Positions 5,457-62,625 of a DNA stretch of 64,000 nucleotides are shown here, in pieces. Below the pieces are notes generated by a model. That model was not told the origin of the DNA and searched no databases. It was given only the letters and a program-made list of their open reading frames with translations. The translations under genes were made by a program, and so were the position numbers. Position 1 is the stretch's first letter. The number at the start of each line of letters is the position of its first letter. The stretch is from an uncultured Lachnospiraceae bacterium (lineage in GTDB: Bacteria; Bacillota; Clostridia; Lachnospirales; Lachnospiraceae). The stretch lies in NCBI GenBank assembly GCA_945913255.1, contig CAMEDC010000006.1:1-64000 (forward strand), written 5' to 3'.

Positions 5457-5490
5457 CCACGAATCAGTATTAGCAACTACTGTCCCGTGG
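5457..5490 (-). terminator. Riboswitch terminator (expression platform)
   Basis: On the minus strand CCACG (5490-5486) pairs with CGTGG (5461-5457), and CAGTA inside pairs with TACTG. The stem is followed by a seven-T run. It reuses the last aptamer segment (CCACGGGACAGT), so metal-dependent folding of the aptamer should prevent the terminator. Confidence 0.75.
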
Positions 5491-5556
5491 ATGATAGATT
5501 CCACTGTCACTCATGTGACCCGACTCCATAACGCTTACGTCACGGCCTGCTCAGTT
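5479..5556 (-). promoter_or_regulatory. NiCo (czcD) riboswitch aptamer
   Basis: Read on the minus strand this leader shows the hallmarks of the NiCo family: ACTGAGCAGGC at the 5' side, then GTGACGTAAGCGTTATG and GTCACATGAGTGAC hairpins, and GGGACAGT closing the helix at the 3' side. The order and core motifs match what I recall of the published cobalt/nickel-binding aptamer. It lies 120 bp upstream of a CDF exporter, the usual target, and runs directly into an overlapping terminator. The expected logic is that Co or Ni binding stabilises the aptamer, prevents termination and turns the exporter on. Confidence 0.88.
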
Positions 5557-5702
5557 TGTACTGTAGATTTATATGCAGTGCAAAGAGTTCCTGTAGAATA
5601 CCATATGCAGCAACATTTGTCAAGACCGTTAGCGCATCGTCCGGGCTGCAGACGGTGCATCCATAAAGTTCTCAGACCGTATTTTGTTTTCTCAATTTTC
5701 TA

Positions 5703-59993: not shown

Positions 59994-60022
59994 AGTATAT
60001 TCTTCCTTTCATGAAATGTCAA
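59994..60022 (-). promoter_or_regulatory. Main promoter of the BMC operon
   Basis: Minus strand: TTGACA, exactly 17 bp, TATACT. It lies about 75 bp upstream of the dehydratase start. A short GC-rich hairpin (CCCGC/GCGGG) follows in the leader. Confidence 0.85.
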
Positions 60023-60036
60023 CGAAACAAACACTA
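60021..60036. promoter_or_regulatory. Candidate DeoR operator, main BMC promoter
   Basis: On the minus strand TAGTGTTTGTTTCGTT abuts the -35 box. It matches the motif at the fucA promoter. Confidence 0.45.
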
Positions 60037-60154
60037 TTTTTCTAACTTTTATGTGGTATTTATTTTGATTCTGTTGGTTTTAGATGTGGTTTTCTTGATT
60101 TTTCCAGAAAATCAGGCAAGAATTATCCTGTTTATTCTTGACTTTGCAAAGGAT

Positions 60155-60898
60155 ATGAGCAATACTGTAGCTATGAAAAATGAGAGTCAAACAAATATTT
60201 CAAGAATAGAATATCACTACCTGCGGACTGACCTTCACACTCACACCATCGCCAGTGGCCATGCCACCACTGACCGGGTAACGGATCTGGCAAAGGAGGC
60301 CGCCGCACGCGGCATGGAAATTCTGGGCATCAGTGATCACGGCCCTGCCACACCGGGCAGCGCCAATCTATCCTATTTCCGGAATCTTTTTTTGTGTGAG
60401 CGGAAACGCTTCGGAATTGAACTTCGATATGGAGTCGAGGCTAACATTCTGGACAAAGACGGCACCCTGGATGTGCCGGATGAAATACTGGAAACGTTGG
60501 ACTACTGCATTGTCAGTATGCACCGCCCGATTTTCACCTCCGGTTCCGCCCTTGAAAACACACGGGCATATATCCGCGCCATGCGCCATCCGAAGGTAAA
60601 AATCATTGGGCACTGTGATGACTCCCGCTTTCCCGTTGACTATCGGGAACTGGTGGCAGCTGCTCTCTCCTGCAATGTGTTGCCGGAGTTAAACAATGTA
60701 TCCCTGCTGCCCGACAGCTACCGAATAGATTGTCGTACCAACGCCGCAAAGCTGCTGCAGACCTGCGAGGCGCTCTCCTGCCCCATTCTGCTTTCCAGCG
60801 ACAGCCACGGAAAGCAGAATATCGGGGAAGCTGATGAGGCATGGAAGCTGATTCGGGAAGTAGGGTTCCCGGAGGAGTTGATTCAGAATGGGAGGTAA
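60155..60898 (+). CDS. PHP-domain phosphoesterase (YcdX-like)
   Basis: About 247 aa from the ATG at 60155. It has the PHP metal motifs DLHTHTIASGHAT, SDHGPATPG, EANILD, HCDDSRFPV and LLSSDSHGKQ. Relatives are trinuclear-metal phosphatases of the YcdX group. The start is uncertain. ATG 60155 has AAAGG rather close, 60173 lacks a site, and a longer reading from 60011 would run through the divergent promoter with a membrane-like segment, which is unlikely. It is divergent from the BMC operon, with no clear pathway link. Confidence 0.8.
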   Translation: MSNTVAMKNESQTNISRIEYHYLRTDLHTHTIASGHATTDRVTDLAKEAAARGMEILGISDHGPATPGSANLSYFRNLFLCERKRFGIELRYGVEANILDKDGTLDVPDEILETLDYCIVSMHRPIFTSGSALENTRAYIRAMRHPKVKIIGHCDDSRFPVDYRELVAAALSCNVLPELNNVSLLPDSYRIDCRTNAAKLLQTCEALSCPILLSSDSHGKQNIGEADEAWKLIREVGFPEELIQNGR

Positions 60899-60985: not shown

Positions 60986-61038
60986 TTGCAAATTGAAGTT
61001 TACCTCGCGAGGGACGTCGCCGGATTTCACCTACTGCC

Positions 61039-61182
61039 GTCGGGGTTGGCGTATCATGTTCCTTCTTCGACACGTTTTCACTCGGGGGCGCGACGTAGCG
61101 GATGCGTAAGCGACCAAAGTACGGTCGCTAAGCACCGACGTCTTGCACGGTCGAATAAGGAACATGATACGCCAACCCCGAC
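61039..61182 (-). ncRNA. Structured element, copy A
   Basis: A perfect 26-bp outer stem joins 61039-61064 (GTCGGGGTTGGCGTATC...) and 61157-61182. After one mismatch it continues as TTCGA/TCGAA. Inner stems, read on the minus strand, are GACGT/ACGTC, CGGTGC/GCATCCG with one bulge, and AGCGACC/GGTCGCT around a GTACTTT loop. It may be an RNA or a hairpin-forming mobile DNA. The orientation is chosen to match copy B. Confidence 0.6.
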
Positions 61183-61297
61183 TGGTCGCAGAAAAGTTTC
61201 GGCGACTGTCTTTTGAAAGCAATCTGCAAGCGTAGTTTCCGGAAAAGCTGTGATGATAATATTTTGAGCTACGTTATTTCTATTTTCATGAAAGCAG

Positions 61298-61439
61298 TCG
61301 GGAGAACGCTTGATATGCCTGGCTCGGCCGTGCAAGACGTCGGTGCTTGGCGGCTGTATTGTAGCCGCCTATGCATCCGTTACGTCGCGCCTTCGAGCGA
61401 AAGCGTGTCGAGTCAGGCATATCATGCGGTAAGCCCGAC
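61298..61439 (+). ncRNA. Structured element, copy B
   Basis: Inverted relative of copy A. The outer stem is GTCGGG/CCCGAC plus a 20-position stem with 19 pairs (CGCTTGATATGCCTGGCTCG with CGAGTCAGGCATATCATGCG). Inner stems are GACGT/ACGTC, CGGTGC/GCATCCG and GGCGGCT/AGCCGCC with a GTATTGT loop. Many stem positions differ from copy A but remain paired. Confidence 0.6.
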
Positions 61440-61518
61440 GGAAACTGCAATAACCTAAGTGAGCGAGGTAAACTTCAATTTACCTCTATCCTTAAATTTA
61501 CCCCCTTAACCTCAAAAT

Positions 61519-61613: not shown

Positions 61614-62477
61614 CTAGCAGAAAATCTCATCCGGTTCAGGCTGGTAATTCAGAATTTCCTCATTCAGTTCCACGCCGAAGTCTCTTCCGATGGCACGGAT
61701 GTTGTCATCGGTAATCATCTGTCTGGGTGCTTTTCCGCCGTTTGCGGCCAGTGCAATGGAAGCAATCTGAGCTGCCTTCTCGATGGTGTGCATCAGTCCA
61801 AATGCGGTATCAAAGTCGGGACCGGATACAAACAATCCATGGAAGGACCAGATTGCCGCATCATACTTTTCCATGAGCACACAGGTTGCCTTTGCGATTT
61901 CGGGACCGCCGGGAACCATCCAGGGAACAACGCCGACACCGCCGGGGAATACCACACAGCACTCCGTTGCACTCTTCCAGAGCATTCTGGTAAACACCTC
62001 AGCCTTCAGTGGCAATACATAGGTCAGTGCAATTACATAAGGTGTATGCGCATGGTAAATTACTCGGTTTGCACCGTTTGTTACCCGTTTTCTGACGGAA
62101 TGATTCATAAAGTGGGTAGGAAACTCACTGGTAGGTCTTCCGCCATTCTCCAGACCCCAAACGATACGATAAGAATCACCCTTATCATTGATTTCCACGA
62201 TACAGATGCTGTTCTGGGGTTCCAGGCCTACATTCTGAAGGAACTTTCCGCTTCCGGTAGAGATAAAATATTCTCCCTTCAGGTTATCTGCCTGAACACC
62301 AAGCTCCACCCAGGGTCCGGGCTCCGCCTTGAAATAAGGACGGCACTCTGCAACTTCCTCTTCTTTCATACGATAGGTCAGGTTTCCGCCGTTCCTCTCA
62401 TGCCAGCCCTGTCTTACACCGTCATGGCACATACGGATATAGTCTTCCATTACCTTTACACCAAATATACTGTTCAT
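61614..62477 (-). CDS. rhaD: Rhamnulose-1-phosphate aldolase
   Basis: The 287-aa class II aldolase of the RhaD type has GWHERNGGNLTYRM for phosphate and Glu, and zinc His in VIYHAHTPYVIALT and SFHGLFVSG. It cleaves rhamnulose 1-phosphate to lactaldehyde and DHAP. The start at 62477 has GGAGG upstream. Unlike FucA here, it has no terminal encapsulation helix (it ends YQPEPDEIFC), so it probably works in the cytosol. It lies 181 bp after rhaA, with a hairpin between them. Confidence 0.93.
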   Translation of the reverse strand: MNSIFGVKVMEDYIRMCHDGVRQGWHERNGGNLTYRMKEEEVAECRPYFKAEPGPWVELGVQADNLKGEYFISTGSGKFLQNVGLEPQNSICIVEINDKGDSYRIVWGLENGGRPTSEFPTHFMNHSVRKRVTNGANRVIYHAHTPYVIALTYVLPLKAEVFTRMLWKSATECCVVFPGGVGVVPWMVPGGPEIAKATCVLMEKYDAAIWSFHGLFVSGPDFDTAFGLMHTIEKAAQIASIALAANGGKAPRQMITDDNIRAIGRDFGVELNEEILNYQPEPDEIFC

Positions 62478-62625
62478 CTTAATCCTCCATTCCGCAGATG
62501 CATCTCGCCAAAGGAATCGCGTGCCATATATCAAAAATCAGGCTCTTCGATTAAGGCTCTGGGGATGTCTGCGACGCAAATAACCTTGTACATGTTCTGA
62601 GATAATCAGCTGTCTTCGTTCAAAC

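Follow-up and report, generated by a model that had tools for sequence, protein, structure and literature searches.

The general view of MITEs is that they are transposon ends with nothing between them. The element described here resembles bacterial MITEs in being short, TIR-bounded and dispersed, with no gene found in it, and in one lineage alone (the TAGG lineage) also in having target duplications and a TIR common to a full insertion sequence (IS); it differs in its specific, covarying three-way-junction fold, conserved over many genomes, and in its occasional arrangement as inverted pairs or tandem arrays. Among the features by which MITEs are recognized, the TIR and the short, multi-copy state without a transposase gene are found in the copy within our window (the whole 64,000-nt stretch of Lachnospiraceae DNA analysed), and the target-site duplication (TSD) and shared IS TIR in the TAGG lineage.

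Three described systems come close to this element. Passages in PMC5678879 describe palindrome-targeting members of the IS1182 family and propose structure-dependent transposition for one member, IS1272, which is reported there to insert by stem-loop replacement, with no duplication left behind; in this it differs from the IS1182-like ISs found here, which leave 10-14 bp. REP/REPIN elements with RAYT, including CGTC-tagged REPs, are likewise intergenic palindromes with inverted dimers and a short hairpin-side tag, but REPs measure 20-40 bp in all according to passages in PMC3733652, whereas our element has a core of about 85 nt plus a long stem, shows TSDs in one lineage and had no RAYT association that we saw. 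The TwoAYGGAY RNA (RF01731) shares with it a long outer stem round a core and occurrence in the same bacteria, yet in L031, a locus with both, neither model matches the other's place. The TwoAYGGAY RNA of that locus (1176-1338, 87.7 bits) has a long outer stem and lies about 1 kb from a hairpin copy, and mobile hairpins may make up this Rfam family, too. Finally, PMC8040213 reports 250 palindromic RNA candidates, among which the present element may be included; in our literature comparison, which covered listed titles and the opening lines of abstracts, none describing the element was found.

Results

The window element (Table 1) is flanked on one side by a PHP-domain gene (60011-60898, +) and on the other by a gene for a class-II aldolase (61614-62534, -), the latter adjoining rhaA, and the ORFs listed within it encode 63-85 aa, besides longer ORFs overlapping its ends. 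A sequence-only reading had described two inverted relatives that keep their pairing, and this was borne out: hairpins A and B are 77% identical across 129 nt in inverted orientation, their 5' ends facing each other, with arms that are 97% complementary in A (61039-61071/61150-61182, 33 nt) and 90% in B (61307-61326/61409-61428, 20 nt). The three covarying pairs that it had noted in the apical stem can be read directly from the sequence (61109-61115/61123-61129 in A versus 61349-61355/61363-61369 in B), and the perfect inverted repeat that it saw enclosing both hairpins is present, although at 19 bp it is one base longer than the 18 bp claimed. At hairpin A, the tag lies immediately beyond the foot of the extended stem. 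Folding of the element is beyond chance, the + strand reaching -270 kcal/mol versus -163 +/- 6 in 100 shuffles (z -17.4) and the - strand a z of -12.7 versus shuffled sequence. The earlier reading could name no known family, and no Rfam 15 family matched the window hairpins at gathering score; the best overlap, Twister-P5 (12.7 bits, E 7.6), was at chance level. Elsewhere in the window, a NiCo riboswitch aptamer was detected at 5478-5564 (-) with 73 bits.

Table 1. Features of the window element (positions within the window)
Feature	Position	Strand	Details
Whole element, TIR to TIR	60990..61481		492 bp; second copy at 98%; Pfam of neighbours
Left TIR	60990..61008	+	AAATTGAAGTTTACCTCGC; also at other G000 sites
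Right TIR	61463..61481	-	Matches left TIR perfectly
Tag	61007..61015	-	GTCCCTCGC, read on - strand; variant of family tag GTSACTYGC
Hairpin A, covariance-model match	61049..61168	-	117.8 bits, highest listed; A is among the model's 30 copies
Hairpin B, covariance-model match	61310..61429	+	109.4 bits; B is also among the model copies
Apical stem of A	61109..61129	-	AGCGACC/GGTCGCT; 7-nt loop GTACTTT (on - strand)
Apical stem of B	61349..61369	+	GGCGGCT/AGCCGCC; loop GTATTGT
Side hairpin of A	61074..61081	-	GT-GAAA-AC, GNRA loop of three-way junction
Side hairpin of B	61397..61404	+	GC-GAAA-GC, GNRA loop

The same genome (G000) contains a second copy, 98% identical, at G000:C28:42-535, and pieces of 96-98% identity that run out where contigs C53, C7 (on either side), C57, C41 and C36 stop, a pattern expected of repeats that break assemblies; diverged copies occur at C6:87375, C10, C3, C12 and C1. 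No flanking duplication of at least 6 bp was found within 24 nt of the window copy, nor any target duplication at the paired contig ends. A search for empty sites, proposed in the sequence-only reading, covered the downstream side of the window copy and found none, the best relatives being at most 84% identical and matching flanking genes only. Replacement of a stem-loop by the window copy without duplication, in the manner of IS1272, would fit.

The window TIR is TGTAAATTGAAGTTTACC-like and differs from the TIR of the TAGG lineage. It is common to other repeats of the same genome in which no such hairpin was seen, for example near ruvA-ruvB (L064; gene names assigned by similarity). Four such repeats (L064, L068, L062, L060) begin with AAATTGAAGTTT as the window element does; one of the AAATTGAAGTTT-starting repeats sits in the ruvA-ruvB gap, and they include a set of three direct repeats, each some 18 bp long, at C4:27812. 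No obvious transposase was apparent on inspection of the ORFs around the C4 repeat, and no transposase with a window-type TIR was found. IS21, considered as a possible origin of this TIR, gave four partial matches to the IstB model, two of them above the cut-off, and was left. Derivation of the window element from a plasmid or phage was also dropped, since a plasmid and phage nucleotide search with the element gave no match and viral contigs contained no exact core match.

The fold is a three-way junction in which a long outer stem, of a sequence that varies between lineages with its pairing kept, encloses an inner stem and a side hairpin. The inner stem is conserved in sequence and bears at its tip a variable stem with a 7-nt loop; the side hairpin has 2 bp and a GNRA loop in 92 of 92 copies (GAAA 50, GAGA 18, GCAA 10, GGAA 6, GGGA 4, GCGA 4). 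The 7-nt loop motif and the junction are also conserved among copies. The covariation first noted in the apical stem generalizes across the fold: in an alignment of 30 copies, from which the odd copy L033 and both L002 copies (near-identical to those of the window) were left out, double compensating changes were present in 31 of 38 pairs, with a covariation score of 0.542 versus 0.186 in shuffled and at most 0.147 in slid controls. The corresponding values for 92 copies were 35 of 38 pairs and 0.687 versus 0.187 and at most 0.139, from an alignment that was fitted to the model and so leans towards structure. One copy (L440, 1567-1821) has an 11-bp duplication, and its apical loop houses an additional hairpin of about 46 nt, which shows that this loop tolerates insertion.

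Searching group genomes with a covariance model, another proposal of the earlier reading, gave matches in 104 of the 138 genomes of the window's group (model from 30 copies, E <= 1e-4), with up to at least 26 in one genome, 26 being the number of candidates scored per genome. Across the phylum, 5 of 398 genomes were positive (the genome of the window, three others from its family and one from a different family), and a nucleotide search of 99 genomes, including that of the window, found matches in 12. A pattern scan of named genomes matched at least 119 stretches; among the 80 matches listed, 67 were labelled Lachnospiraceae or genera that we take as belonging to it (Acetatifactor, Kineothrix, Anaerobium, Dorea) and 13 had other labels, mostly metagenome bins, six of them Gastranaerophilales. 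The element is a real, widespread, structured, multi-copy interspersed MITE-like family.

The hairpins occur singly, in tandem (e.g., L025, L040, L148) and as inverted pairs. All 11 inverted pairs listed have their 5' ends inward as in the window, with tags, where present, outermost; among these pairs L001/L002 are near-identical, L024/L082 resemble each other, and the spacing is 295 bp in L080 and 500 bp in L097. The sets of 193, 235, 252 and 256 hairpins used for the counts below were collected by a regular expression that allows 3 substitutions and may take in false ones; one hairpin so collected, in L469, was unconfirmed by the covariance model. A tag near GTSACTYGC (one mismatch allowed) followed 40 of 252 hairpins, clustered about 51 nt past the core, compared with counts of 14, 9 and 17 in three other placements.

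The hairpins are located in gene gaps, including those within operons (atpG-atpD, gltB-gltD; all four names assigned by similarity). They take mixed orientations with respect to their neighbours: besides those between co-directional genes, 33 of 193 had convergent and 19 divergent genes on either side, one had no neighbour, and 12 were inside an ORF of at least 120 aa, some of these ORFs being tandem-array artefacts. An associated gene was considered and rejected; no recurrent neighbour beyond apparent host genes was found in 20 loci of few-copy genomes or in 102 loci. For the atpG-atpD gap, 61 genomes were searched and 30 loci fetched, of which two were unparsed; judged by reading, the hairpin was present in two of the 28 parsed loci, in opposite orientations, and absent from the other 26, where the gap measured 16-150 bp. 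We read these as two independent insertions into one operon. Strong transcription termination by the element is unlikely, because it is inserted between two atp genes. In the gltB-gltD gap of three loci (L139, L140 and L141, from G173, G130 and G132), another large palindromic element adjoins the family hairpin, with conserved inner motifs TTTACTGAGCTATTGAGAGGAGACTCAAGTC ... GGTTTGAGGCTC.

Evidence of transposition comes from the TAGG lineage, an element of about 211 bp with the TIR TAGGYRWTTGCGAAAC. The TIR TAGGYRATTGCGAAACT or a close variant bounds 63 of 252 hairpins on at least one side, part of these having been fetched by that TIR. For a survey of target duplications, two genomes were chosen for the TIR, 40 regions were fetched and 30 elements delimited, with three doubtful candidates retained (L429, the second of L436, and L452) and, in cases of overlapping TIR pairs, preference given to those with a TSD; the hairpin core is carried by 26 of the 30 (fuzzy motif). 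A TSD with at most one mismatch was present at the TIR edge in 16 of the 30 (15 with the core), measuring 9, 10, 11, 12 and 13 bp in 1, 3, 5, 5 and 2 cases, whereas the flanks of different elements match likewise in 4 of 870 pairings; 14 of the 30 TIR-bounded candidates had no visible TSD. A separate scan found a direct repeat with the TIR at 13 of 235 hairpins versus 0.67 per 235 in shuffled pairings, of which we disregarded the six belonging to tandem arrays (L025, L040, L294), leaving seven. Fifteen full-length copies of one genome, with a mean identity of 89% and a duplication in 10, fold end to end and show compensated double changes in 4 of 75 predicted pairs, so that pairing has been kept during recent movement.

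Two further MITE types carry the TIR of the TAGG lineage. In G017, a second hairpin type with the core GACAAAATAAGGGCGACTTGCCACTGCTTCGGAGCCCGTTTTTGTC lies inside the same TIRs (L345 and L360), the L345 copy being tagged with GTCACTTGC and having the 10-bp duplication AACAGGATAA. In G573, elements of 85-90 bp with the same TIR have a short conserved centre ATACGTTGTAGAAAATATACAA (L439, L444, L446).

The TAGG-lineage TIR, deviating from its pattern by no more than one mismatch, stands at both ends of five insertion sequences of 1752-1796 bp. When viral contigs were scanned for this TIR, 16 were obtained, several looking like chance matches; L464 contains a TIR-bounded element of 1796 bp with a protein of 485 aa, L469 one of 1767 bp with a protein of 507 aa, L458 a partial IS copy, and L472, a related contig, a 1756-bp copy. 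Relatives of the transposase are encoded on plasmids in Roseburia sp. 831b, with 81% identity, and in Butyrivibrio proteoclasticus, with 66%, within ISs of 1752 and 1766 bp that have one TIR mismatch at one end each; a further relative is present in pieces in Agathobacter rectalis (39% covered). Three of the five ISs inspected have target duplications, of 10 bp in L472 (TACAACTTTC), 14 bp in L474 (Butyrivibrio pCY360; CATTTATTTATAAA) and 11 bp with one mismatch in L464; none was seen in L469 and L473.

Like the IS1182 family, this partner transposase combines a Pfam DUF772 match with a DDE domain, the latter above the cut-off in L469 alone, and is related to the NCBIfam IS1182 model (NF033551); its scores of 68.4 and 69.3 bits are, however, far below the family cut-off of 270. 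Judged by these models, it is a distant IS1182 relative outside the family cut-off. The hairpin is absent from the ISs (no covariance-model match at E <= 1 in the five contigs), and the fold is therefore dispensable for their own transposition. Exact TIR patterns of seven host genomes included no inward pair at full-IS spacing, a search that diverged TIRs would escape, and the nearest pair (G572:C15, 1.4 kb, L416) was without such a transposase; the present-day copies may therefore depend on elements elsewhere or be stranded.

Discussion

We consider it fairly probable that the element is a non-autonomous Lachnospiraceae MITE with one or two conserved three-way-junction hairpins as cargo, moved in trans and kept paired at the DNA level. 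The TAGG lineage would probably be mobilized by an IS1182-like DDE transposase and the two-hairpin version of the window, with its other TIRs, likewise by another transposase; with less assurance, the pairing would be held in DNA, through a cruciform or hairpin used in transposition and/or through arm-to-arm copying, and not in a strand-specific RNA. In favor of this reading, the 9-13 bp duplications of the TAGG lineage resemble the 10-14 bp of the IS1182-like ISs with the same TIR; against it stand the different TIR of the window copy, for which neither TSD nor transposase was found, the hairpin-free ISs and the strict GNRA loops.

Such loops are typical of RNA, although GCGAAAGC is a very stable DNA mini-hairpin too, and it is somewhat unlikely that the MITE instead carries a functional RNA, its GNRA strand transcribed from its own promoter or by read-through and its junction serving as an RNA module or small RNA that, for example, makes insertions in operons harmless through processing. 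The six GNRA variants that fill every one of the side-hairpin loops, the conserved 7-nt loop motif and junction, the very strong compensating changes and the location in gene gaps, including inside the atp and glt operons, are all in keeping with an RNA; both orientations in the single atpG-atpD gap are not, nor is the count between co-directional genes, where 82 of 128 hairpins have an antisense GNRA strand and 46 a sense one. Base pair states also weigh against it: core G.U is rare (17 of 1902 standard pairs versus 23 of 366 in 17 tRNAs of the fetched loci), and the outer stem, counted free of structure bias in 211 of 256 hairpins, shows no strand preference (G.T 393 versus A.C 354; per hairpin, 85 favor G.T, 73 A.C and 53 neither, p 0.38). 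A tolerance of G.U on the GNRA strand (G.T 73 versus A.C 21 in the outer stem of the model-fitted alignment) was dropped after this recount. With G.T and A.C symmetric, also in the core (17 versus 15 of 1991 cells), the folded strand is indistinguishable by these data, and the pairing may be maintained in DNA, through selection or correction of one arm by the other. The same symmetry, the few non-Watson-Crick states of the core (106 of 1991 cells) and an outer stem that differs between lineages and is still paired would agree with covariation that arises without selection, where long inverted repeats self-correct by template switching in replication and one-sided mutations become paired changes. 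This process cannot preserve loop and junction bases, yet these are strongly conserved, and as the explanation of the fold it is unlikely; the conserved loops argue that at least part of the maintenance is selection. Pairing thus seems to be kept at the DNA level or by hairpin-templated correction, with the GNRA loops and junction suggesting RNA; we rank DNA-level maintenance first and an RNA role second.

The sequence-only reading had offered a structured RNA or the single-stranded DNA hairpin of a mobile element. Mobility and a fold maintained across species both stand, whereas the single-stranded route is unsupported by the 24 Y1 loci, the TIRs and the TSDs. A REP/REPIN-like element that a RAYT (Y1) transposase moves in the form of single-stranded DNA is very improbable: the hairpins, tandem arrays and intergenic position recall such elements, as do the inward 5' ends of all 11 listed inverted pairs (some at loci with related copies), but Y1 matches occur in 49 of 138 genomes and in neither of the hairpin-rich G100 and G017, none of the 24 Y1 loci scanned is hairpin-flanked (one match lies about 6.6 kb from the gene), the RAYT-like genes here are flanked by other repeats, and the TSDs contradict this route in the lineage tested. 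The RAYT-like Y1 genes of the group (L166-L174) are mostly located between GGGACGG-type repeats unrelated to the hairpin.

It is possible, though doubtful, that one three-way-junction module with an obligatory GNRA loop has become the cargo of at least two transposon end systems and spread by an advantage of its fold. If true, that advantage would lie in a DNA substrate for structure-sensitive IS1182-type transposases, or in a new class of RNA that neutralizes operon insertions.

A MITE-like element whose elaborate fold is preserved through compensating changes across many genomes, recently moved copies included, is a warning that strong covariation alone is no proof of a functional RNA, and similar mobile hairpins may be among the candidates in RNA screens of gut genomes. 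The host being an abundant family of gut bacteria, the element makes it testable whether transposases read DNA structure or genomic parasites carry structured RNA.
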